A DNA stretch of 38,106 nucleotides from a virus. The stretch spans positions 1 to 38,106 of the IMG/VR virus record IMGVR_UViG_3300042731_001625, one strand, 5' to 3'. The notes under the pieces are model-generated. The model was given only the letters and a program-made list of their open reading frames with translations. It was not told where the DNA came from and did no database searches. A program made the translations under genes and the position numbers. Shown here one piece after another: positions 6,902 to 37,947 of this stretch. Position 1 is the stretch's first letter. Each line of letters opens with the position of its first letter.

Positions 6902-7537
6902 ATGAAAGCTATTGCTTTGTTCGTGTTGATAATGCTCATGGTCAGCGGTGCATCTGCTGAAACTGTACGAGATCGTGAACTAAAGCGGGTACAAGCTTGG
7001 ATCTGCGATGCCGAATCAATGGAAGTACCACCCGTCGTAGTTATGACACCCCCGACTGATGAGATGGGTGAATTTATTCCAATTGATACAGAAATCATTG
7101 CGGATGATCTTGTTCCAGAAGTCGGATGTACAGTTTACGATAGCTATGTCGTCGGGGGAGAAATCAAAGGGCGAATGATGGCTTGGGGTTCTCCAATCTA
7201 TGAAATGCTACTTTCCGTTTCATTCAATATTGGTGAAATGGCAAACTGGATTGCTCATTGGGGATTTATGACACCAGTGGCTGGAACTAATGGCGCAGCA
7301 TATGATATGCAGAGTATGCTATATCTAGATGAGAATGGAGTTCCTATGCAATACCGTATAGGCTTTCTTCGAAATGCTCCAGTTGAGATTGAAGTCAAGT
7401 TACGAAATGGTACACGGGTAGTAATTGATCACCCTGATCCTCTTACATTGATTTCATTACAAAAGTCATTACTAACAAGTGAAGGTCGTTCTGCTGAGAT
7501 GATTTATATTCTAGACTTCCGTGGAGAACAACCATGA
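6902..7537 (+). CDS. Exported protein with Sec signal peptide, 211 aa
   Basis: Function not recognised. Residues 1-19 form a classical signal peptide (MKAIALFVLIMLMVSGASA) with an AxA cleavage site. The mature part has two cysteines (in WICDAES and VGCTVYD) that could form a disulfide, a hydrophobic stretch MLLSVSFNIGEMANW, and otherwise beta-rich sequence. AAGGAG at about 6889-6894 is a good ribosome-binding site, and the start lies one base after the previous stop. The gene is more GC-rich than its neighbours. Its TGA overlaps the ATG of the next gene. An early-operon phage protein sent to the periplasm could act in envelope modification, exclusion or lysis control; none is demonstrated. 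Confidence 0.75.
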   Translation: MKAIALFVLIMLMVSGASAETVRDRELKRVQAWICDAESMEVPPVVVMTPPTDEMGEFIPIDTEIIADDLVPEVGCTVYDSYVVGGEIKGRMMAWGSPIYEMLLSVSFNIGEMANWIAHWGFMTPVAGTNGAAYDMQSMLYLDENGVPMQYRIGFLRNAPVEIEVKLRNGTRVVIDHPDPLTLISLQKSLLTSEGRSAEMIYILDFRGEQP

Positions 7538-8594: not shown

Positions 8595-8954
8595 TTATCT
8601 CTTTTTTAATAGTTGTAGAATCTCATCTAACTTATCATCAATATCATTTAACCTATAACCATAAACCTGTTGGTTTTTATCAATTCTATTAAGTTCCTTA
8701 ACAATTGTATTAATATCAATTCTATTGTTATTTATTGCATTTATATGATATTGTGCAAAATCCTCATGATCTTTAAAAGACTGTTGCATTTTTGCAAGTT
8801 CAAAATAAAGACTGACCATCCCAAGTATACTAGCAGAAATTATTACAACACCTACTCCTATAATTAGTTTCTTTACAGTTGATTCATCTTCAACAAGTCT
8901 GTTAATCTGATTCTGTTGTATATCATCTTTTGTTTTATTGTAATTATCATTCAT
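8595..8954 (-). CDS. Single-TM coiled-coil protein, 119 aa
   Basis: Polar N-terminus of about 28 residues, one transmembrane helix (KLIIGVGVVIISASILGMVS, about 29-48), then a helical tail with heptad spacing (INTIVKELNRIDKNQQ, RLNDIDDKLDEILQLLKK). This topology resembles phage inner-membrane spanins (Rz-type) or XhlA-like membrane proteins, but the N-terminal extension is longer than in typical spanins. It is the last gene of the late operon, its ATG overlapping the stop of the giant gene (ATGA at 8951-8954). A lysis function is plausible from position, not shown. Confidence 0.66.
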   Translation of the reverse strand: MNDNYNKTKDDIQQNQINRLVEDESTVKKLIIGVGVVIISASILGMVSLYFELAKMQQSFKDHEDFAQYHINAINNNRIDINTIVKELNRIDKNQQVYGYRLNDIDDKLDEILQLLKKR

Positions 8955-11900
8955 TGTAGTCCCACGTAATTAAGTGCTTCTTTTTTGAATTGTTGTTTTC
9001 TCGCCATTGCTTCCTTGATCTTTTTAATCCCAGCTTCCTGTGAGATATTTCTTGTAGCTACTTGTTTACGTAGCTCAGAAATTCTTCTATCAATTTGTCG
9101 TACTTGATACTCAACCCATTTTTTATTTTGTATTCTTTGCTCAACAGGACGATAGTCTCGTACACTGAATCCCATATTAGTAACTAGATCAGACATCCAT
9201 GATTGCTTATCAGTACCAAACTGACTATACTCATCATTACCAAATCCAAACTCATTACTTATTCCAGTTTGTGAGAAGAAATCTCCAAGGGCACCAGAAT
9301 TAGAAAGAGCAGGGATTGTCATCAGATTATAGAAGTGCTTACCCCAAGCCATTCCTTTTTCAGAAGCAGATAATCCATCCGGGGCAATCTCCCTCTTAGT
9401 AAATGGATCTACTCCAGTCACACTAGCTGCCATAATCTGTGGCACAACACCACCAAACAGCCCCATCTCATCGATAGATGCTCTTGTCATGTTACCTAGT
9501 GAAGATTCACCAGGAGGAGGACTGGCTACATTCCTGATCATATCCACATAGAATAACATAGGAACTACATAACTTAGATCCAGTGTAGTCATGTCATTAT
9601 TTGGATCTCTTCCAAGTGGTATAGGAATAATACCAGTTTTATTCTTTGTCCAAGCTGGTGAAGCTTTAGCAGCTTCCTCATAATCATCTCCAGTCATGCC
9701 ACTAGCCAACTGTGCCATCTGAACCAGACCATACGCTAGAAGCGGATACTTGATAAATTTCTGTGGTCTGTTAATAACAGCATCAGCCATCATACCACCG
9801 AGTTTGTAGTTAAATGTCAAGAATGGAGCACCAAAAGGAGACCTTCTCAGTTGTTCTACTGTTTTAGGAATATTGATATTATATTCTGGTACACCAGTAG
9901 CAGCAAACTCTAGTGCTTTATTCATCAGATATTTCATCTGATTTTCATTTAGCTTATCTAATGCTGCAGGAGTTCCTTTGTTTGTCTTTCTATACTTTTC
10001 AATAAAATCTCTCATCAGAGCAGACTTAAAGTCAAGGTCCATAGTAGCATTAAGTTGTGATAGGTTCTGAGTACCACGAGATAACATATTCACTATCCTT
10101 GCGCTGTTCTCAGACATCATTATAAATCCCATATGAGGAAGTTTAGAGTAGATAGTTTTTTGATTATCTATTTCTCTCTTAAATGCATTAGTCCTTTTCC
10201 TCATCTCATTGGTAGTATAAATATTATTGATTTGGTAAAGCTCTCCTTCACCAAAGCTAGTAGCACCAGCACCACTCTCAATAGCCCACTCATATAAAGT
10301 CTTACCAGCAAACTTCTCAGCTCTCTTTTGATCTGACCTTTCTCTAATTCCCTTAGCATAATATTTAGCCATTGTCAAGCTATTTGTATCTGTTGCCATA
10401 TCCATCATCATAGCTGTACCGATCCATGCTCTGGGCCAATAAGCAGGAATATTCCACAGTGTTTTACCAGCTTTCCATGCTGCATTGTACTTTTCAATCT
10501 TTCTTCCTGTACGAGTAGAGAGTAGATTATCTACCAAACTACCCATGTCTGCAGTCATGTCAGGATCAGTACCAAAGAAGGACTGGTAGATCTCTCTATC
10601 AATCCACATTCCTCTTAGATCACCAAGGTTACTGTGTTGTCTTTTCTTTGGATCAATAAAGATATACTTGTCGTCTAATTCTTCTTTAGTAATATTTTGT
10701 TCTTTAGCAATCTCATTACCAAGTGTTTCAGTCAGGTTTTTAAGAACCTTAACATCTTCACGCATAGCCATAATCATATCTGGAGAAGGTGCATCAGCAG
10801 CAGTAGAATCCTTACTTAACTTTGTCTCATACATATCAAGAAGTTTCATATAACCAGCATAAGTACGGTTATGTTTTACTGTTCCAAGGTCAGTAACTTC
10901 AGCATCAGGAAGATTGAAAGGATAAGCATTCAGTTCAATCGGAACTCTATCAGAGTTACCTAATACCCAACCTTTATTAAATTGGTTAGAGATATCAATC
11001 ATCTGATCAAATAGAGTCAGCTTTGCAGAATCATGTGCAATCTGCATTACTGAATGTAAGAGGATAGTTTGTGGATCATTGATCTTATCTACACGCTTAT
11101 TTACATCTGGACCAGCATGTCTTAGATATGCTCTAATACTAGGCGTGAGACCAGATCCTCTGTATTGATCAAAGAACTCTTCATAGAGCTTTGCAGTGTA
11201 TGTACCAATACTCTCTAGTGTTTTATTTGTAGTTGCATCCAGATCATTATTCTCAATAAGATAACCTTGTTGAGCAATAAGCTCATTATTCCAATCTTTG
11301 ATAAGACTAAGTTGTTCAAGATTAAGATCGTTTTTATTTATACCAGTTAGTTGTAAGAAAGCATCATATTCTGACTGTAGCACCTTACCATCTTGATCAA
11401 TAGATAAATCAGATACAGTACCATTCTGCCAAGCAGCAAGAATCTTACGGAGAACGTGTTCTTTATTAACCCTAATTAGTGGTCTAAACAATTTCTTCTG
11501 AAGAACAATTGCTTTATCATTAATATTATCAATTTTACCTGCTGCCATTCTTTCAAGAATATTAATAGTATTTCTATCATTAACATTAGCCATACCAGAG
11601 AGTTTAAACCTTCTGTTTATACTATCTAGGAATTTATTAGAATATTTTCTATAGTTATCACGGATAACTCCTCTAGAACCAGCATTCTTAATACCAATAT
11701 CAATCTCTTCAATAGGAGTAGCAGAAGCAATAGACTCACCAAGATTATTATTAATCTCAGTATCAGACATGGTATTATCCATAAATGCATAGTTACCATC
11801 AGATATCATAGGAGGAGTATCAACAACCTTTCTACCAGCAATAAGATTATTATAGTTATTATTAATAATACTTTCAATATTCTTATCAGTAACCATAACC

Positions 11901-14900
11901 TTAGTAGACAGTTTCATCATAATATGTTTGATCTTTGCAACCAGACGACTAAAGAAAGAGTTCTCTAGTTTGTTGCTTAATTGTCCAGTCTCAAACTTCT
12001 CCCTTGCTAACTCAGCAATATATTCTTCCATTCTTCTTCGGTCTGATAGCTTAGAATACCTATTTCCTAGCTTATTCTGCATAGCAGTACGTAAGCGTTT
12101 ATTCCTTACTGCATTATCGAGGAACCTATCAAGAGCAGGACCAAAGGTTTTTCTTAATCCAACGTGTCCAACTAACTCATGGATAATGGCACCCTTAATA
12201 CGGTCACTATTCTTGAACCTTGCTAAATCAACATAAACACCATACTTACCATCACCTGAGACAAACATTGCTCTAGGCTTTTGATTAATAAACCTATCTC
12301 TTACAAAATCATCTTGAATCTCATTTGGGTTAGAAAAGAAATAAAAATTTACATCATCCAGGTTAGGATTAGACTTAAGGAAATTATTGATCTTGTTAAC
12401 TTCACTTAATACAACAGCAGGACTTTGTTGAGAATCATTCTGTAATACTTCAAAAGACTGGTTATCAAAGTCTCTTGTTTCTATAGATTTCTTAAAGTCA
12501 TTTAATACTTCTACAATAGCATCATTATCTTCTTGATTTAGTTCATCCCAAGATGCTCTTACAACATATTTATTTTCAGAAGGATTAATTAGACCCCTCT
12601 TATTTAATTCAGCAAGGACTAACTCTCTGTTTTCTGGAGACTTATTCCAGAATTTCTTAACTTGTTCTGGAGTTACTTGGCCTTCTGCTGTTTGTGTAAC
12701 TAAGTTTTCTTGTTCTTTAGGTCGTTTAGTATTATGCTCTTTTATAAATGCTTCATGTTCTTGTATAGTTAATCCTATATCAGTCTCATACTGAATATCT
12801 GTTGCTTTACGTATATTCTCAGCTTGAATAACCCTACCACTCCATTTTCCTCTTTCTCCTTTAGAAGAGAATCTTTTACCTTCTTGTGCTCTTTTCCACC
12901 TTTCAGGAGTATACTCCAGTAAGAAATTACCACCGCCTTCAGCTTCATCTTGGATTTCTATAAATGCTTTTCTAACTTTTCCCGGTGGAACTTCATAAGG
13001 ATATTCTACTTCTTCTTGTTCTTGAAGTACTCCACTTGTCTCAGTCGTTTCTTGGCTCCTGCCTTGTTCTTGCTGCATCCCAGGTTGCGTCCCTTCTTGC
13101 TCTGAACGCAATACTTGCTGCCCTTCTTGCGTATCATCTGCTTCTATTTCCTCCTTAGTTCTTAATTTAGGTTGAATTCTGTTTAATACTCTTGGTAATT
13201 TTTTACCAACCCATTTTCCTGGCCTATTAAGAGCGTCGGTTTCATAAGTACCATTCATAAAATCATTTACTGCATTTTCAGCAGCACGTCTTTCAATATC
13301 TTTTATTTCAGCTTTTCTCTCAGTTGGAGAAAGATTATCTAAATAATCCGCTTGTTTAATAGCTCTGTTTTTATATCTGTTATATAGTTGTTTAGCTCTT
13401 TTTAATGCTTGATCCCAGGTATATCCTTCAGCACTACCAATAGCAGTTCTTTCTAATGGATCACCTTCTAAAGATCCACCACGATAATATTTTTGTCCTT
13501 TCTGTGGTGTATATTCAATAATGTCTACATCTTGTGGTCCACCAATTTTACCACCACTTATAGCAACTCTTCCCCAAGGAGTAACATGTTCATACGCAAC
13601 TGATTCTGGAGATCTTACTGGAGTATTTCGCGGAACACCTCTATATAATACAGTTGGTTCACTTGGTTTGTTTTTTCCAGTTATAAAATAGTTTTGTAGT
13701 TTTTGAAAAAGTGATTTATCTTTCTCATACATATCATCCGCTAGCTTTTCAACCCTTTCAAATAATTCTTCATCACTTGCAATAGAGGTTTCTTTTTCAA
13801 CAGGAGCTTGCTCAAGTGTTTCTTGAGCTTCTTGTGGAGTTTCTTGTATCTCTGTAGCGGCTTCTTCTACTGCTTGTGTGGTAGGTTCTGTGGCCTGTTC
13901 TACAGGTTCTACAGGGGGTACCCTATCGGGGGTTACAGGCTCAGTAATGGTAGGGGTAGGGGTAGGCTCTGTAACAGCCTCTACGGGGCTTACAGAGGCC
14001 TCTGGAGCTACATTTGTGGCCGGTTCTGTGGCCGGTTCTCCTTGGACTGGAGTTGTTGCTGTCTCCTCTTCCTGTACTCTTCCTTCTGTTTCAGCACCCG
14101 TAGCCTCTTCTGCTCTACGAGCTTCCTGTCTTTGCATCCGCAACCCATCTGTTTCTTCTCCTTTTTCTGATTTTAATGAAACAGTAAGAGTAAAGGTTTT
14201 ACCTCTTTTATTAATTTGAGTTTTATAACCAAGACTTTTATATCTGCTTTGTATATCCCTAAGCTCTTCCCTAGTACCTCTTGTAATCTTGACAGGATTA
14301 CCAGTAGTAGGAACTTGCTCAGTCTGAATACCAAAAGCTCTTGCTCTCTCTAATCCTTTTTCTGCTCTGCTTGAAGAAATAATATCTCTTGACTTCTCAA
14401 GATTCTCTTTTACTTTTTCATCTTCTGCTTGAGAAATACGATTTGATAATTCTTCTTGAATCTCTGGCTCACTTAAACCAGAAAGCTTAAGAGCATCAAT
14501 ATACTCTTTTCTTACTCTTGCATTAACAATATTCTCAGATTGTAGTTTATCTAGTAAACTATTTCTAGTTTGAATAACAATCTCTTGTTCTTGAATATCA
14601 TCAGTATTACGATACTGCTTAAATGTTTCAGCAGCTTCTTTTACTTCATTTGTGGTAAATTCAGTTTGTTCTTGAACTTCCTTAGCTACTTTAGCTTGTT
14701 GTGAAGCACGGTTAAGTGTTGAAGTAGGATCAGCAACATTATCTTGCTGATCAGTAATTTCTGTTTGACCAGTATCTCTGTTCCTACGAACACGATATCC
14801 TAAACCAGAAAGGATAGCATTAGCAATAACACCAGCAGTACCGCCAACCTGAGCAGCTTCTGTAGCACTCTCTAATAGTGCTCTGTCTGGATCATAACCA

Positions 14901-15718
14901 ACTGCTTCCTTAGCTATATAGTTTTCTCCAATAGTTTGTAACCCTTCTTGTACCCCTTCATAAGCGCCACGAGCAACAAAGTTATTCAGTGTTTTTGCTA
15001 ATAAGGTAGTTTGTGCAGGACCAAGAACTTTTCCAATTGCTCCAATAAAAGGTATTGCTTCTGTTAAACCAAGAAGAGCACCACCACCAGCAGCAGATAA
15101 TCTTGTACCTTCTTCTTGTCCAAACTCTCCAGCCTCTTCATACAAACCGGCAGCACCAACACCAGCACCTTGTACTGCAGTACCGAGAGTAGATGCACGA
15201 GAGATTCCCTTTAGACCAGCACCAACACCCTTAGCTGCAGCACCAGCTAAACCACCAGGAATAAGAAAACTAGCAATCTGCCCAAGAGCATTTGCTACTT
15301 TACCACCAAATTCCTCTTGTATTTCTGGAGCAATATTATCTCCAGTAAATAAATCTTCAACCCATTCACCAGCACCATACAGAGCAGTTTCTTCAGCCTT
15401 GGTATCAAAACCAAGACCACGACCAATTGCAGATTGAGCTATCCCAAGTCCTTTTGGGATTCCAGCTACTCCTTGTCCAAGTCCTTTTAACGCTACTTGT
15501 GCATAATCATCAAGTAGAAATTCAGAATCTTCAGCAATAGCTTGTTGTTCTTCCTGAGCCAGTCTTTGTTTTTCTTGCTCTCTTAATTGATTGAAATAAT
15601 CTTCATCCGGTTGAAAAACACCAGTAGAAAAAGAAGAAGTAGTTTGTTTAGGTCTAACTGGTCTACTTAAGCTTTTTCGATAAACATCTACAAGAGTCTC
15701 TTGTCTTTTTGTTGCCAT
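8951..15718 (-). CDS. Giant polyvalent-type internal virion protein, 2255 aa
   Basis: The largest gene in the window. N-terminus: residues about 75-230 are Gly/Ala-rich with glycine-zipper-like helices (GLGQGVAGIPKGLGIAQSAI), as in injected, membrane-active virion proteins. Residues about 550-645 are a Pro/Thr/Glu linker. Near 690 there is an LYRG motif reminiscent of ADP-ribosyltransferase domains (weak). H1180-ELVG-H1185 in IIHELVGHVGLR is the zincin-like HExxGH motif seen in phage 'polyvalent proteins'. The C-terminal third is helical; WKAGKTLWNIPAYW (about 1748-1761) resembles large-polyvalent-protein-associated domains such as LPD38. Family knowledge suggests it is packaged and ejected with DNA to protect it or act on the host. 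It starts 5 bases after the preceding stop in a GTAAATAAAATGGC context. No transglycosylase motif was seen. Confidence 0.82.
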   Translation of the reverse strand: MATKRQETLVDVYRKSLSRPVRPKQTTSSFSTGVFQPDEDYFNQLREQEKQRLAQEEQQAIAEDSEFLLDDYAQVALKGLGQGVAGIPKGLGIAQSAIGRGLGFDTKAEETALYGAGEWVEDLFTGDNIAPEIQEEFGGKVANALGQIASFLIPGGLAGAAAKGVGAGLKGISRASTLGTAVQGAGVGAAGLYEEAGEFGQEEGTRLSAAGGGALLGLTEAIPFIGAIGKVLGPAQTTLLAKTLNNFVARGAYEGVQEGLQTIGENYIAKEAVGYDPDRALLESATEAAQVGGTAGVIANAILSGLGYRVRRNRDTGQTEITDQQDNVADPTSTLNRASQQAKVAKEVQEQTEFTTNEVKEAAETFKQYRNTDDIQEQEIVIQTRNSLLDKLQSENIVNARVRKEYIDALKLSGLSEPEIQEELSNRISQAEDEKVKENLEKSRDIISSSRAEKGLERARAFGIQTEQVPTTGNPVKITRGTREELRDIQSRYKSLGYKTQINKRGKTFTLTVSLKSEKGEETDGLRMQRQEARRAEEATGAETEGRVQEEETATTPVQGEPATEPATNVAPEASVSPVEAVTEPTPTPTITEPVTPDRVPPVEPVEQATEPTTQAVEEAATEIQETPQEAQETLEQAPVEKETSIASDEELFERVEKLADDMYEKDKSLFQKLQNYFITGKNKPSEPTVLYRGVPRNTPVRSPESVAYEHVTPWGRVAISGGKIGGPQDVDIIEYTPQKGQKYYRGGSLEGDPLERTAIGSAEGYTWDQALKRAKQLYNRYKNRAIKQADYLDNLSPTERKAEIKDIERRAAENAVNDFMNGTYETDALNRPGKWVGKKLPRVLNRIQPKLRTKEEIEADDTQEGQQVLRSEQEGTQPGMQQEQGRSQETTETSGVLQEQEEVEYPYEVPPGKVRKAFIEIQDEAEGGGNFLLEYTPERWKRAQEGKRFSSKGERGKWSGRVIQAENIRKATDIQYETDIGLTIQEHEAFIKEHNTKRPKEQENLVTQTAEGQVTPEQVKKFWNKSPENRELVLAELNKRGLINPSENKYVVRASWDELNQEDNDAIVEVLNDFKKSIETRDFDNQSFEVLQNDSQQSPAVVLSEVNKINNFLKSNPNLDDVNFYFFSNPNEIQDDFVRDRFINQKPRAMFVSGDGKYGVYVDLARFKNSDRIKGAIIHELVGHVGLRKTFGPALDRFLDNAVRNKRLRTAMQNKLGNRYSKLSDRRRMEEYIAELAREKFETGQLSNKLENSFFSRLVAKIKHIMMKLSTKVMVTDKNIESIINNNYNNLIAGRKVVDTPPMISDGNYAFMDNTMSDTEINNNLGESIASATPIEEIDIGIKNAGSRGVIRDNYRKYSNKFLDSINRRFKLSGMANVNDRNTINILERMAAGKIDNINDKAIVLQKKLFRPLIRVNKEHVLRKILAAWQNGTVSDLSIDQDGKVLQSEYDAFLQLTGINKNDLNLEQLSLIKDWNNELIAQQGYLIENNDLDATTNKTLESIGTYTAKLYEEFFDQYRGSGLTPSIRAYLRHAGPDVNKRVDKINDPQTILLHSVMQIAHDSAKLTLFDQMIDISNQFNKGWVLGNSDRVPIELNAYPFNLPDAEVTDLGTVKHNRTYAGYMKLLDMYETKLSKDSTAADAPSPDMIMAMREDVKVLKNLTETLGNEIAKEQNITKEELDDKYIFIDPKKRQHSNLGDLRGMWIDREIYQSFFGTDPDMTADMGSLVDNLLSTRTGRKIEKYNAAWKAGKTLWNIPAYWPRAWIGTAMMMDMATDTNSLTMAKYYAKGIRERSDQKRAEKFAGKTLYEWAIESGAGATSFGEGELYQINNIYTTNEMRKRTNAFKREIDNQKTIYSKLPHMGFIMMSENSARIVNMLSRGTQNLSQLNATMDLDFKSALMRDFIEKYRKTNKGTPAALDKLNENQMKYLMNKALEFAATGVPEYNINIPKTVEQLRRSPFGAPFLTFNYKLGGMMADAVINRPQKFIKYPLLAYGLVQMAQLASGMTGDDYEEAAKASPAWTKNKTGIIPIPLGRDPNNDMTTLDLSYVVPMLFYVDMIRNVASPPPGESSLGNMTRASIDEMGLFGGVVPQIMAASVTGVDPFTKREIAPDGLSASEKGMAWGKHFYNLMTIPALSNSGALGDFFSQTGISNEFGFGNDEYSQFGTDKQSWMSDLVTNMGFSVRDYRPVEQRIQNKKWVEYQVRQIDRRISELRKQVATRNISQEAGIKKIKEAMARKQQFKKEALNYVGLQ
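13900..14065. repeat. Low-complexity, G-rich repeat tract in the giant gene
   Basis: This stretch encodes the Pro/Thr/Glu linker of the giant protein. On the plus strand (the template strand for that gene) it holds G-runs at 13914-13918, 13928-13932, 13953-13956 and 13959-13962, with GG(TA)GGGG(TA)GGGG(TA)GG at 13949-13966, and a 12-bp tandem direct repeat (TGTGGCCGGTTC) at 14015-14026 and 14027-14038. Base composition is more GC-rich than the flanks. Confidence 0.7.
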
Positions 15719-22942: not shown

Positions 22943-24424
22943 TCAACGAAGTTTGAACTTAACAAATGCTACCCTATTATAAAGACTTGATAATAAACTA
23001 ATATCTGTAGATGATATAGTGTAAGTACCAGTTTCTATGTTTAATAACAAATCTTTAATAAAATCAAGATCATATCCAGATAAAGTATAAGAACCATTAT
23101 CTACATCAAATAATAGCTTCCTTAATAGACCAATATCCTGCCCTGTCAATACATATGAATCTCCTGCTAGTGATAATAAAGAAGACTTTATTAAAGAAGC
23201 ATCTGTGTCTAATAAATCAAATTGTCCTACAGATGAAATAAGTGGAAGAGTTCTATAATAAGATATATCTTGACCAGATAGGACATAAGAACTGTTTTCT
23301 AAGTTTTTAAATATTATACTTTTTAATAGATTTAGATCTTGTCCTGTAAATGTGTACGATCCATTTGATAAACTGGCTTTCCTAGCAGCAGAAATATCTT
23401 GTCCCGTTAGAGTATATGAACCCTCGGCTATAGCTATAGAATATGCTTTTTTTAAATTTATATCCTGTCCTGTAAATATATAAGAGCCATGTTCTATATT
23501 ATTAAATATTGAATATTTAGAAAGATTTACATCTTGTCCAGATAGAACATAAGATCCACCAGAGACTGAAACAACTATATCTCCATCAGAATTAAATTTT
23601 GTTAAAACAGTATCATAAGGAGTAACATCATAAGACCCAGTCTCTGAAGTTAGTATAGGGAGTAAGTTATATAAACTATCAAGTTGAGTTTTTGTATATG
23701 CTGTATCAGCATCAATAAAAAAACCTGCAAAATTAGCTATTATCCCATCTACAGAAGATCCATTCGGTAATGAAGCAGCACCAATACGTAAATTCGTATT
23801 TGTTGTGCCTACAGAATAATCTCCAGATGGTATTGTTCCCATGGTTTCTAATACACCATCAACATACCCCTTAATAGTAGTTCCGTCTCTTGTTATAGCA
23901 AAAAAATGCCAGTCTCCATCATTAATAGCAGGCAACGTACTTGAAACTAATTGCCCTATATTTCTATTACCTAAAGTTCCATATTGGCAACCAAAAAATA
24001 AATTATCACCAGAAACTAATCCAATACCAGCAGGTACACTATTGTATGTAGGAAGAGTAGATGATAAATCAATAAATTCAAATATAGTTACACTTGAATA
24101 GTATAATTCGTATGTTCCACCAGAACTAGTAGTTTTAATCCAACCACCAATAGTAAACTCTCCACCAGACTCTCCCATATCTTGTAAAGCAGCGGGAGCA
24201 GTTGTTAAAACAATAGGCTGAATATATCCACTTGTAGAACTAGAAGTTAATACAGAATCATCTAATCCAGTTAAAGAACCAGGACCATCTGAAGCGTCTT
24301 GTGCTGCATTGCTCCAAACTGCAGAGTCTAATGAACCAATAGCATCTGCAGATGGAGATGAAGATTCTTGCAATAACCATAAATGGTCTGCACCTAATGA
24401 TTGTAATAAAGTTTGATGACTCAT
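22943..24424 (-). CDS. LamG-like tail protein with tandem GSYxLTGQD repeats
   Basis: A 493-residue probable receptor-binding or tail-surface protein. Residues about 85-235 look like a concanavalin/LamG fold: FTIGGWIKT, then DGDWHFFAITRDGTTIKGYV and DGVLE. From about residue 258 to the end run ten imperfect repeats of 20-29 residues with the core GSYxLTGQDINLxK, likely a repetitive beta-hairpin or solenoid stalk. LamG domains bind glycans or proteins, so host recognition is a reasonable inference. The ATG overlaps the stop of the 52-residue gene. Repeats 6-7 are the most divergent. Confidence 0.74.
   Translation of the reverse strand: MSHQTLLQSLGADHLWLLQESSSPSADAIGSLDSAVWSNAAQDASDGPGSLTGLDDSVLTSSSTSGYIQPIVLTTAPAALQDMGESGGEFTIGGWIKTTSSGGTYELYYSSVTIFEFIDLSSTLPTYNSVPAGIGLVSGDNLFFGCQYGTLGNRNIGQLVSSTLPAINDGDWHFFAITRDGTTIKGYVDGVLETMGTIPSGDYSVGTTNTNLRIGAASLPNGSSVDGIIANFAGFFIDADTAYTKTQLDSLYNLLPILTSETGSYDVTPYDTVLTKFNSDGDIVVSVSGGSYVLSGQDVNLSKYSIFNNIEHGSYIFTGQDINLKKAYSIAIAEGSYTLTGQDISAARKASLSNGSYTFTGQDLNLLKSIIFKNLENSSYVLSGQDISYYRTLPLISSVGQFDLLDTDASLIKSSLLSLAGDSYVLTGQDIGLLRKLLFDVDNGSYTLSGYDLDFIKDLLLNIETGTYTISSTDISLLSSLYNRVAFVKFKLR
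22946..23650 (-). repeat. Ten protein-level tandem repeats (GSYxLTGQD)
   Basis: The 3' half of the LamG-like gene encodes about ten copies of a 20-29 residue unit: for example GSYVLSGQDVNLSK, GSYIFTGQDINLKK, GSYTLTGQDISAAR, GSYTFTGQDLNLLK and GSYTLSGYDLDFIK. DNA copies have diverged, so the array is old rather than a recent slippage product. Confidence 0.85.
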
Positions 24425-24579: not shown

Positions 24580-24794
24580 CTTTCTAGTTCTCTTGCTAAA
24601 TCATGTAATAATGTTTTTATTTCTCCATTCATCATCAATACTTCTTGTGACATTTGTACAATCTTTAGAGCTATTTGATGATCAACAGAATTACACAATA
24701 TAATTATTTCTCCATAAAGTTTATGAAGGTCTTCTTTATAAGAAGATACATGCTCTGCACACTCCCTTATCCAATGTGAATGAGCTTCTGTCAC
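24576..24794 (-). CDS. Hypothetical helical protein, 72 aa
   Basis: Helical, with heptad-like spacing (LHKLYGEIIILCNSVDHQIA, LMMNGEIKTLLHDLARELER). The start is GTG 24794, overlapping the stop of the 42-residue membrane peptide gene (GTGA at 24791-24794). It may be a small coiled-coil partner, but there is no family match. Confidence 0.65.
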   Translation of the reverse strand: MTEAHSHWIRECAEHVSSYKEDLHKLYGEIIILCNSVDHQIALKIVQMSQEVLMMNGEIKTLLHDLARELER

Positions 24795-24919
24795 CTAATA
24801 AAGAAAGGTAGCAAACCAATAAAAAGCGCCAAGAGCACAATAGCGATAGCTATTTTTCTTTCTCGAAGCCAGTTAATCCAACCAAAAAAAATTAGAATTG
24901 GATGATAATTGTGGCTCAT
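24791..24919 (-). CDS. Small single-TM membrane peptide, 42 aa
   Basis: A 42-residue gene, too short for routine calling, supported by GTGA overlap with the next gene and by starting two bases after the previous stop. Residues about 22-40 (KIAIAIVLLALFIGLLPFFI) are a transmembrane helix; the preceding REWLRERK-type basic patch (WINWLRERK) predicts a cytoplasmic N-terminus. It follows two genes whose products carry signal peptides, giving three consecutive envelope-targeted proteins. A holin-like or exclusion role is possible. Confidence 0.7.
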   Translation of the reverse strand: MSHNYHPILIFFGWINWLRERKIAIAIVLLALFIGLLPFFIR

Positions 24920-24921
24920 GG

Positions 24922-25278
24922 TTACAGATCATCTCCTGATGTGCCGGCAGGGATCAACCCCTGATTGATCGCGTACTGCAGCGTAAGGTCGTAAAGGTTC
25001 CGAAGTTCCTCTTGCCGTGCCGTCGGGATGTCCGGCCAGCGAACGACGACATTTTGCCGGTCGATGACCTTGTTGTCAGCATCACGCAAAAGAATCGTGG
25101 CGTGGAAATAGCTGTCGGAACTCGGGTTGCCCTGCGCGTTCAGCTCGATGACCAAGCCGTAGTCTGCAAGGATCGCGTTTGTTTCGTCCGGCACCAGCTC
25201 TGGCGCGGTGTAGGTATAGGTGCCGATGCCAAGCGCGATGCTGGGTATTAGCATCAAGAGTATGAGTAGTTTGTGCAT
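24922..25278 (-). CDS. Exported protein with signal peptide, 118 aa
   Basis: Starts at ATG 25278 in an ATGA overlap with the fibre gene stop. Residues 1-18 are a signal peptide (MHKLLILLMLIPSIALG), then a mature domain of about 100 residues, beta-rich first (GLVIELNAQG, YFHATILLRDADNKVIDRQN) and helical at the end. No cysteines and no lipobox. Not recognised. The gene is strongly GC-rich compared with the phage backbone and belongs to the same acquired island as the fibre; it may assist export or folding of the fibre, or be a structural partner. An upstream in-frame extension to 25344 has no basis. Confidence 0.7.
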   Translation of the reverse strand: MHKLLILLMLIPSIALGIGTYTYTAPELVPDETNAILADYGLVIELNAQGNPSSDSYFHATILLRDADNKVIDRQNVVVRWPDIPTARQEELRNLYDLTLQYAINQGLIPAGTSGDDL

Positions 25279-26990
25279 CAGAATGCTGCTCCTGCTGAGT
25301 GATCGAAGAGTGTAGACCAAGTTGTTGAACCGCCTGCGGTGCAAGCGATAAGAAAGTCGCCATCATCGCCTTTCCCGGTGCCGTCGCTCATCCACATGAC
25401 ACATTCACCCTCGCTTGGTGCCGACGGGTCGCTGCTGCGCTCGGTCAGTTCGATGCGGTCGTGGAAATAACGCGAGCCAATGTTGATTTGATTGTTGCCG
25501 GTAACGCTGTCGACTTCCTCTTCTGCGCCTATGACGATGTTGTTGCTGCCAGTCGTCAGCGCATCTCCGGCCTTGTAGCCATACAGAGAATTTTTGTCGC
25601 CGGTCGTGTAGACCAGCCCCGCACGCGACCCGATAATCGTGTTGTAATCACCTGCCGATGATCCGCTGACTCCTTGTCCGGCCAGAATGCCGATGCAAAT
25701 GTTTTCCGTTCCGTCCGCGTAACGGCAAGCGTTGTTGGAAATGCCGATATTATTGTCGCCATCGCTGTTTTGCAGCGCCCATTTGCCTATTCCAACGCCG
25801 TTATTTGCTGCCCTATTTGTTCCAGCGGCATATCCAATGAGTACGTTGTTAGTTTGTACCGTGAGACTCCCGCCAGCGGCATAGCCTGCTAAAGTATTTG
25901 CGCTACCCGTTGTAATGTCTTTCCCCGCTTGATACCCAATGCCGACGTTACTGTCCCCTTCCGTAATATTGAGCAACGCGGAAAGACCAAATCCCAAATT
26001 GTAATAGCCGTCTAAGCCTGTCACATAGGAGAGGCTACCGCCGCCGCCACCGAACATGAACGTCCCGGTGAAATTGTCTATTTCTTGCGCGTGATAAAAG
26101 AATTCTGTGGTATTGATAAACAGCTTTCCGTCATCATCAACTACGAGTGGACTTGCCTGAGCAGTGCTCCCGCCTGTCCCATCCGCTCGCAACACAGCGT
26201 TGTCCGTCGAGCCGGTCGATCCGCCGATACCGCCTTCTGCTGCAGCCTCTAGGCTGATCTCCCCGTCTGCGTTGTCATAAGTCAGTACGTAGTTATCCTG
26301 ACCAGCTCCGACGGTCTGGTCGGCATCGAACTCGAAGTTACCGGCGAGCACGTTGCCGGTGCCATCCGGGTTGATTGTGATGTCGCCATTGCTGGCGCTA
26401 ACGATGCTTTGTCCGTTGACGTCCAGATCTCCTCCAAGCTGCGGGGTAGTGTCGTCAACGATGTCCGAAAGCCCGCCACCTGCGGCAGCTTCCCACGCAG
26501 ACCCTCCAGCACCATCCGCCGTCAGCACCTGCCCATCGGTCGCCGCACCGCTCCCCAGTGTGCCTGCGTCGAGATCTCCCGGGTTCTGAAGACTGTCCAG
26601 CTCAAGCGTGCTCTCAAGAGTATTCTGCGTTGTGGAGTCGATTTCATTTATCCAATTGAGGCTCACACCCGAAACGTTCGGGCTTAGAACATAGTAGCCA
26701 TCGATTGAGATACTACCTAAGTAATCCGGCGTCCCATCGCCAAACAATTGCCAGACGCGATTACCTCCCGGTGCATCATAGACCTCAATTAACTTATCAG
26801 CCGGATCATGACTGTCACCAATAATGGTAAAAGCCGCTCCATCGCCATTCAATTGGACAGTAATATCCTGGTCTGGTGTACCGGCGGTAATTCCGTTCCC
26901 ATTAACGTCGAGGTCGCCGCCAAGTTCAAAGCCACCGGCAGATCCAGTAATCGTCAACGCACCATCAGCAGCTAAAGTTCCGTCTCCGCT
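24925..26990. other. GC-rich island, probable laterally acquired fibre module
   Basis: Base composition changes abruptly near 24925 from AT-rich to a markedly GC-rich sequence with many CG dinucleotides, and returns to AT-rich by gradual steps between about 26640 and 27000. It holds the exported 118-residue protein and most of the fibre gene. The fibre's signal peptide (27040-27098) is in AT-rich backbone-like sequence, so the right junction lies inside the reading frame. Confidence 0.8.
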
Positions 26991-27098
26991 AATAGTTTGA
27001 GATTGGAAATTCCCACTAGACTGCTCAATAGGAATATCACCCTCAGCCGCAAGTGCAAATATAGGAAAAACTAATAGTAAAGTAAAAAGTTTATTCAT
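25278..27098 (-). CDS. Exported fibre-like protein with YadA-head-type repeats, 606 aa
   Basis: A 606-residue trimeric-fibre-like protein. Residues 1-18 are a Sec signal peptide (MNKLFTLLLVFPIFALAA) followed by EGDIPIEQ. The middle has phage-fibre modules (TPQLGGDLDVNGQS, SNGDITINPDGTGN, TGSTDNAVLRADGTGG). About ten NxxIGxxAG repeats follow (NVGIGYQAG, NVLIGYAAG, NTIIGSRAG), forming a left-handed beta-roll as in YadA heads. The C-terminus (SEGECVMWMSDGTGKGDDGD) is a common tail-fibre end. There is no membrane beta-barrel anchor and no S74 peptidase. ATG 27098 overlaps the previous stop (ATGA), which fixes the start and so the signal peptide. GC-rich body unlike its neighbours. Confidence 0.8.
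   Translation of the reverse strand: MNKLFTLLLVFPIFALAAEGDIPIEQSSGNFQSQTISGDGTLAADGALTITGSAGGFELGGDLDVNGNGITAGTPDQDITVQLNGDGAAFTIIGDSHDPADKLIEVYDAPGGNRVWQLFGDGTPDYLGSISIDGYYVLSPNVSGVSLNWINEIDSTTQNTLESTLELDSLQNPGDLDAGTLGSGAATDGQVLTADGAGGSAWEAAAGGGLSDIVDDTTPQLGGDLDVNGQSIVSASNGDITINPDGTGNVLAGNFEFDADQTVGAGQDNYVLTYDNADGEISLEAAAEGGIGGSTGSTDNAVLRADGTGGSTAQASPLVVDDDGKLFINTTEFFYHAQEIDNFTGTFMFGGGGGSLSYVTGLDGYYNLGFGLSALLNITEGDSNVGIGYQAGKDITTGSANTLAGYAAGGSLTVQTNNVLIGYAAGTNRAANNGVGIGKWALQNSDGDNNIGISNNACRYADGTENICIGILAGQGVSGSSAGDYNTIIGSRAGLVYTTGDKNSLYGYKAGDALTTGSNNIVIGAEEEVDSVTGNNQINIGSRYFHDRIELTERSSDPSAPSEGECVMWMSDGTGKGDDGDFLIACTAGGSTTWSTLFDHSAGAAF
25472..25955 (-). repeat. YadA-head-type NxxIGxxAG repeats
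   Basis: About ten copies of a 14-20 residue unit within the fibre gene, each with Asn, a small hydrophobic, Ile/Leu-Gly and a following Ala-Gly: NVGIGYQAG, NTLAGYAAG, NVLIGYAAG, NICIGILAG, NTIIGSRAG, NSLYGYKAG, NIVIGAEE, NQINIG. The pattern predicts a trimeric left-handed parallel beta-roll. Confidence 0.85.
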
Positions 27099-27517
27099 GG
27101 ATTGATTATCTTTCCAGTTATGTCTACCCAAGAGCCATCTTTGTATGCATAATATTTTCCATCAGATGCAGGAGGAGAAACACTATTTCCCATTGTTTCT
27201 AATGCATCTTGTCCAATAGATACTGTAACTGTAACAGTATCCCCATCTCCTACTGTTCCTATACTTGCTCCAGTATCTTGAGATCCAGCACTATAATCTA
27301 AAGAATTTGTTGATAATGTCCAAGGAACATCATAATAAATTGCAATATTAGAAGTATCCTTTTCTAATGTTACATCAAAAGTATCACCATCAGCAATATT
27401 CCCTGCTGTTTGTTGATCACTAAGAGTTACATAACCACTTTCAGCATCACCAAGGCTAACTACTGTACCCGATATTGTTCCAGAAAGTTTTACATTTGCA
27501 GGGTATCTTTCAGCCAT
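27095..27517 (-). CDS. Putative tail beta protein, 140 aa
   Basis: All-beta, Thr/Ser/Gly/Asp-rich (LSGTISGTVVSLGDAESGYV, GDGDTVTVTVSIGQDALETM), ending in KYYAYKDGSWVDITGK, an ending common to phage tail collar or fibre-proximal proteins. No named family. ATG shares bases with the adaptor stop (TAATG at 27517) and its own stop overlaps the ATG of the fibre gene, so fibre translation is coupled to it. Composition is like the phage backbone, unlike the island that follows. Confidence 0.63.
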   Translation of the reverse strand: MAERYPANVKLSGTISGTVVSLGDAESGYVTLSDQQTAGNIADGDTFDVTLEKDTSNIAIYYDVPWTLSTNSLDYSAGSQDTGASIGTVGDGDTVTVTVSIGQDALETMGNSVSPPASDGKYYAYKDGSWVDITGKIINP

Positions 27518-37484: not shown

Positions 37485-37664
37485 TTAATTATCCTGTTTA
37501 CCTAAATCTAAGATAATAATACCAACATTCTTTTCTTTTGCTTGAATAAAAGCATAAAAACATTCAACATACATATCTTCTTGATCATCAAACATTTGTA
37601 AAAATACTGGAGTAGGATCATAACAATCTCTAAGAAAGTAACTATATAATTGACTTTCTGTCAC
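37485..37664 (-). CDS. Hypothetical protein, 59 aa
   Basis: Not recognised. The GTG at 37664 is chosen because it lies 10 bases after the DUF6321 stop and has AAAGAAG upstream. A longer version from GTG 37739 would add an apparent signal peptide but needs 65 bases of out-of-frame overlap with DUF6321. The product is acidic with several aromatic residues (MFDDQEDMYVECFYAFIQAK) and two cysteines. It ends two bases before the small-terminase ATG. Confidence 0.55.
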   Translation of the reverse strand: MTESQLYSYFLRDCYDPTPVFLQMFDDQEDMYVECFYAFIQAKEKNVGIIILDLGKQDN

Positions 37665-37674
37665 TTTAACTTCT

Positions 37675-37947
37675 TTAGCAATTCCATGCCCTGAGAGACT
37701 TATTGATACGAGAATTAGGATCTTTAGCAGTTTTAGCACTTGTGTTTCTTTTCTTCATGCCTTCCATCCTGGCACAAAAACTTTTTCTCCTATTGGCATC
37801 CTTTTTAGTTTTTGGTTTAGGAGCAGGAGGCTTTAAGTTTCCACCAGTCTTTTTATTGTAACTGGCTCTGCCTTTGGCATTTAATCCACCTTTAGGATTC
37901 TTACCTTCTTTCCTTTGCCAAGCAGGAGAACTTAATCTCTTTTTCAT
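37675..37947 (-). CDS. DUF6321-like conserved phage protein, 90 aa
   Basis: A basic 90-residue protein with the family signature: SPAWQRKEGKNPKGGLNAKG (residues 7-26), RASYNKKTGGNLKPP (27-41), SFCARMEGM (56-64) and a closing SLRAWNC. This highly conserved small protein occurs in many tailed phages next to terminase and head genes; its role is unknown, though charge and conservation suggest DNA or capsid-interior binding. Its ATG overlaps the stop of the repeat protein (ATGA at 37944-37947). Confidence 0.8.
   Translation of the reverse strand: MKKRLSSPAWQRKEGKNPKGGLNAKGRASYNKKTGGNLKPPAPKPKTKKDANRRKSFCARMEGMKKRNTSAKTAKDPNSRINKSLRAWNC

Follow-up and report, generated by a model that had tools for sequence, protein, structure and literature searches.

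A fibre-type gene with a predicted Sec signal peptide in the late operon of a podovirus-type phage

The window, meaning the whole 38,106-nt stretch of viral DNA analysed here, carries in a late structural operon a fibre-type gene, P0001, whose product is predicted to begin with a type I Sec signal peptide. The protein is fibre-like by its modules, and its export through the Sec pathway is likely. The best overall explanation, which we put forward tentatively and with somewhat less than even confidence, is that P0001 is an imported, Sec-exported and cleaved soluble fibre that would act as a virion-free binder. The sequence, junctions, modules, compositional island and recurrence described below are direct observations.

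The window phage is a podovirus-type record with a portal related to those of phiR18/KPP25-like phages and with MCP, terminase, RNR and MazG genes; the RNR and MazG genes suggest that it is virulent. The fibre locus lies between SU10-type adaptors and the head closure gene Hc3, with the portal and MCP genes upstream, and in the nearest sister (L016) roughly the corresponding place is taken by a long fibre without a signal. Table 1 lists the features of the locus. A family search with the 42-aa one-helix protein returned no match.

Table 1. Features of the fibre locus and its surroundings in the window; slashes mark predicted cleavage sites.
Feature	Position	Strand	Evidence
Fibre-type gene P0001, 606 aa	25278..27098	-	Translation, modules, fold
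Predicted Sec type I signal peptide of P0001, MNKLFTLLLVFPIFALA/A	27048..27098 (lower end approximate)	-	Sequence; explicit rule with chance rates
ATGA stop/start overlap, P0001 ATG with TGA of preceding gene	27095..27098	-	Sequence
Marine-phage fibre module TPQLGGDLDVNG...GNFEFDADQTVGAGQDNYVLTYD, P0001 residues about 209-285	26244..26474	-	Sequence searches
About 11 YadA-head-type rungs, P0001 residues 361-545	25464..26018	-	AlphaFold2, viral Foldseek, sequence
C-terminal tip module, P0001 residues 549-606, ERSSDP...WMSDGTGKGDDGD...TLFDHSAG	25281..25454	-	Sequence searches
Preceding late gene, 140 aa, phage-like GC	27095..27517	-	ORF list, GC
Second cassette gene, 118 aa, signal-peptide-like start MHKLLILLMLIPSIALG/IG	24922..25278	-	ORF, rule, junction
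GC-rich island over both cassette genes, 52-57% GC vs 34% GC in the phage	24930..27040	.	Composition
42-aa one-helix membrane protein downstream of the cassette, holin-like only by appearance	24791..24919	-	Sequence
Second fibre-type gene of the window, laminin-G domain, without signal peptide	22943..24424	-	Domain/PHROG matches

The P0001 translation begins MNKLFTLLLVFPIFALAAEGDIPIEQ, and its signal segment reads MNKLFTLLLVFPIFALA/AEGD, with cleavage predicted after residue 17 or 18 (ALA/A or LAA/E). In particular, the N-terminus (MNKLFTLLLVFPIFALAAEGD) has a positively charged n-region followed by a hydrophobic core that is short and holds a central Pro, then an AxA site and an acidic mature start. 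The hydrophobic run of about 15 residues, with the Pro in its middle, is short for a membrane anchor; Lys and Arg are absent between residues 4 and 101, and the lack of a Cys near the cleavage site leaves no lipobox. Signals were called by home-made explicit rules for the n-, h- and c-regions, in a lenient and a strict version, and P0001 passes both. The lenient rule is passed by chance by 1.4% of spurious ORFs and by 0.1% of random sequences of P0001's composition, and the strict rule by 2 of 3105 spurious ORFs (0.06%), in agreement with the initial annotation, which had proposed a Sec signal peptide on this 606-residue protein. The strict rule also accepts the hydrophobic N-termini of tail proteins at three other loci (L149:4347-5798, L181:4418-5926 and L189:4345-5913). 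They represent a conserved tail-region protein that adjoins fibres, and their signal-like N-terminus (MGKALKTIAMIAVAVFAPYAAAALG...) is probably a virion or membrane-active segment and not an export signal.

The start codon of P0001 is fixed, as the initial annotation had argued, by the ATGA overlap with the preceding gene, and other junctions in the late operon are as tight. An in-frame TTG 33 nt upstream of the ATG (27131) is a possible start that would merely extend the n-region. A downstream start was rejected, the first in-frame ATG occurring not before residue ~348, as was a frameshift fusion with the preceding gene, in which the signal would be buried.

Downstream of the signal, the body of the protein is built from fibre parts. 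The marine-phage fibre module has 252 confirmed stretches in viral contigs, and the tip module, earlier described as a common tail-fibre C-terminus, recurs at 78 viral-contig loci. AlphaFold2 places about 11 evenly spaced strands at residues 367-540 with high confidence, close to the ten YadA-head-type repeats first counted, and is confident in the tip as well; elsewhere the model is weak, with residues 1-345 mostly at pLDDT <50. The shaft matches a tail spike PHROG (3.9e-12), and Foldseek against viral structures retrieved tail fibres along with S74 and YadA-like proteins. The Pfam YadA head was not scored in P0001, and PDB searches by sequence and by fold gave nothing useful. At the N-terminus, neither Pfam nor PHROGs identified a virion-attachment domain, the model of residues 1-222 was poor, and a search of the first 61 aa against phages found no meaningful match. 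The YadA C-terminal anchor barrel is absent by Pfam and by the model, and the C-terminus is the phage tip. The same tip occurs on a 1050-aa ORF in an Omnitrophota MAG (L192:45-7668), whose neighbours are DUF6701 and prepilin-type genes that carry signal peptides; Omnitrophota as the bacterial home of the tip was rejected, because of 285 genomes from this phylum a single one has the tip.

The fibre gene and the 118-aa gene that follows it differ from the rest of the operon in composition. Their GC3 values (0.53 and 0.70) stand out from the 0.11-0.35 of other late genes, and the two-gene cassette is therefore probably a recent import. GC climbs gradually inside the fibre gene, and its first ~40 codons are AT-rich; a fusion point was not read from this start, because hydrophobic codons are AT-rich anyway. 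The 118-aa gene overlaps the fibre stop by one base (TGATG) and passes the lenient signal rule only. Its search against the phage collection gave no significant E-value, with weak Rhodobacter phage matches (E 0.3) whose loci provided no link; zero relatives were found in viral contigs and in 85k genomes, its single-sequence structure model was poor and had no significant fold match, and it shows no similarity to the signalled gene that follows the L198 fibre. No close relative of the whole cassette was found.

The signalled fibre-type gene is real, uncommon and recurrent. Among distinct ORFs with the fibre modules, 3 of 105 are signalled, the window included (2.9%), which is close to the lenient background of 2.1% over all ORFs of the same contigs, so that sporadic chance capture of signals could explain the rarity. 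By module, none of the ~72 complete N-termini of fibres with the GNFEFDADQTVG module is signalled, one fibre with the P0001-type tip is (L219), and one with YadA-type repeats is (L309). The latter is of the lipobox type and is immediately followed by a tail tube gene (PF06199); it is also the one case of a signal with YadA-type repeats found in other phages, a combination that the initial annotation had suggested searching for. L309 (488-2620) encodes 710 aa with ~30 YadA-type repeats and the lipobox LSGC in a tail operon, and is a candidate lipid-anchored fibre. Relatives of the YadA region in isolated or named phages whose full starts were read (Tenacibaculum PTm1, a Halorubrum virus, Venkman and ctpbd312) have no signal.

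Further signalled fibre-type genes, without the P0001 modules, occur on the same contigs. The L246 fibre (639 aa, PF07484 Tail Collar) is followed by a small protein and then an endolysin; its N-terminal domain has a homologue in an unsignalled tail spike (L316) and begins without a signal in phage ct2G2228. The L264 fibre (635 aa) matches a tail fibre PHROG, and L221 has two signalled fibre-type genes. The L253 fibre (840 aa) aligns to an unsignalled fibre (L217) from residue 22, its predicted mature start, which corresponds to L217 residue 2; because the alignment opens at the predicted cleavage site, the L253 signal is an exact extension added in front of an ordinary fibre start. The gene preceding the signalled fibre is homologous in L253 and L264 (32%) and overlaps it by 4 nt in both, while the fibre bodies differ. 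These cases (L246, L253, L264 and L221) were picked by the signal rule first and recognised as fibre types afterwards, and they thus prove recurrence, not frequency. Overall, these independent genes, which belong to unrelated phages, help to make export the most economical reading of P0001, and they suggest that some phages export fibre-like binding proteins from the infected cell, besides building them into particles.

The translocation and cleavage of P0001 and, above all, its function are what we infer from these observations. The fibre-type gene and its signalled neighbour would have been imported from a more GC-rich source into the podovirus late operon. Late in infection, P0001 would cross the inner membrane via Sec, and cleavage of the signal would leave a soluble fibre whose shaft is YadA-like and whose tip is that of a phage. 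It would then most likely occupy receptors or glycans of the envelope, from the periplasm and, once the cell has lysed, also on debris and on cells nearby, with the outcome that progeny are not lost or that re-infection of the cell is prevented. That the window phage has a second fibre-type gene without a signal (22943-24424) also speaks for this reading. By analogy, we favour receptor occlusion or a released binder as the reading of this virion-free role, and the analogues behind it are T5 Llp (PMC9586334), PblA/PblB (PMC2920869) and the predicted PblB signal (PMC4508584). One point against a virion-free binder is that a soluble periplasmic fibre would miss the surface before lysis if the host is Gram-negative. 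Stable surface display of P0001 is unlikely, because it has neither an autotransporter anchor, such as the YadA beta-barrel, nor a lipobox; the earlier suggestion of a fibre displayed on the infected cell therefore gains no support for P0001, the lipobox being found in the unrelated L309. It is a broader and rather doubtful proposition that several unrelated tailed phages put a Sec signal, of type I or lipoprotein type, exactly at the front end of an ordinary fibre and so turn it into a receptor-binding protein that works free of the virion in the infected cell's envelope before lysis. If true, signals added to ordinary fibres would amount to a general receptor-occlusion or exclusion strategy made from the phage's own fibre modules.

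The main rival to the virion-free binder is periplasmic maturation before virion attachment, in which P0001 would be exported to form disulfides in the oxidising periplasm and be joined to virions when the cell lyses or later, remaining a virion fibre. We regard this as unlikely. The four cysteines in its 606 aa (0.66 per 100 aa, against a median of 0.17 in fibre relatives) would suit such a route, as would the place of the gene in the structural operon and the two cysteines in the mature part of L219, which has both a signal and the tip. However, 0.5 cysteines per 100 aa is reached by 28% of fibres, cysteines are not enriched in every signalled fibre-type protein (L264 has none), and the mature P0001 N-terminus is without a recognised virion-attachment domain. 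Moreover, we know of no tailed phage that assembles its fibres by export and later fitting, which also counts against this route.

A quite improbable alternative is that the hydrophobic N-terminus is a virion segment, serving as an attachment plug or a membrane-interacting peptide, of an ordinary fibre assembled in the cytoplasm. Podoviral proteins can insert into membranes, and the signal rule's acceptance of the L149, L181 and L189 tail proteins also speaks for such a segment; however, the P0001 segment is short, contains a Pro at its centre and an AxA site, and precedes a long stretch free of positive charge. The exact coincidence of the L217 start with the predicted cleavage site of its signalled homologue L253 argues in the same direction.

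Less credible still is that the phage has captured an exported adhesin or a moron cassette which works for the host cell (or for a former host phage) and has no role in the virus cycle. Both cassette genes are foreign in composition, PblA and PblB are examples of fibre-type proteins that act as bacterial adhesins (PMC2920869), and the Omnitrophota MAG has a P0001-type tip beside exported DUF6701 and prepilin-type genes, but that is a single genome in 285, and the relatives of tip and module are overwhelmingly phage genes. The fibre gene also sits within the late operon with overlapping starts, in a phage whose RNR and MazG genes point to a virulent lifestyle. Finally, an artefact, whether from chimeric assembly or from an N-terminus that looks like a signal by chance and has no biological significance, is highly improbable: the GC shift is abrupt, the contig is uncultured and 1.4% of spurious ORFs pass the lenient rule, but in-frame stop/start overlaps flank the fibre gene on both sides, its GC increases gradually along its length, and spurious ORFs pass the strict rule at a rate of 0.06%.

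Phage fibre proteins that work away from the virion are already known, and P0001 is not a new category. PblA and PblB of the Streptococcus prophage SM1 reach the cell surface by holin and lysin, and resemble our reading of P0001 as phage tail-fibre or tail proteins that work on cell surfaces outside the virion (PMC2920869). Compared from literature descriptions only, they differ in taking the holin and lysin route and in binding choline residues, whereas P0001 has a type I signal predicted on the gene itself, a podovirus background and a YadA-type shaft. A signal peptide has been predicted for PblB, a prophage tail-fibre homologue of S. pneumoniae (NTUH-P15) (PMC4508584), whereas the SMART domain plan of S. 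mitis PblB shows none. The claim of a new use of a fibre is thus narrowed by this precedent, although searches of open-access text turned up nothing on exported fibres of tailed phages apart from PblB. T5 Llp, one of a group of similar superinfection-exclusion lipoproteins, is exported, targets the receptor from the periplasmic side and blocks further infection (PMC9586334), which is the mode of action favoured for P0001; however, it is a small outer-membrane lipoprotein and no fibre, and a lipobox is absent from P0001 and present in L309. The YadA trimeric autotransporter adhesins (type Vc) share with P0001 a signal peptide and a YadA-head-type beta-roll, but have a C-terminal anchor barrel where P0001 ends in a phage tip module. 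The pIII protein of filamentous phages differs in being membrane-anchored and in its assembly during extrusion; the assembly of tailed phages takes place in the cytoplasm.

For the targets of diversity-generating retroelements, the absence of signal peptides has been cited in favour of a phage over a bacterial surface origin of binding proteins (PMC6199706), and this literature, checked for signalled phage binding proteins, states that they lack signals. Tailed-phage virion fibres are assumed not to leave the cytoplasm before lysis; late-operon fibres with signals would make the no-signal rule less secure and indicate a second use of fibre modules.

Elsewhere in the window, a 2255-aa protein (8951-15718, minus strand) has zero PHROG matches, and its position suggests an internal or ejected virion protein. 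Two further ORFs, unrelated to the fibre cassette, have signal-peptide-like N-termini: MKAIALFVLIMLMVSGASA (6902-7537, plus strand) and MLKLLKILILVSISLSGHGIA (37485-37739, minus strand).
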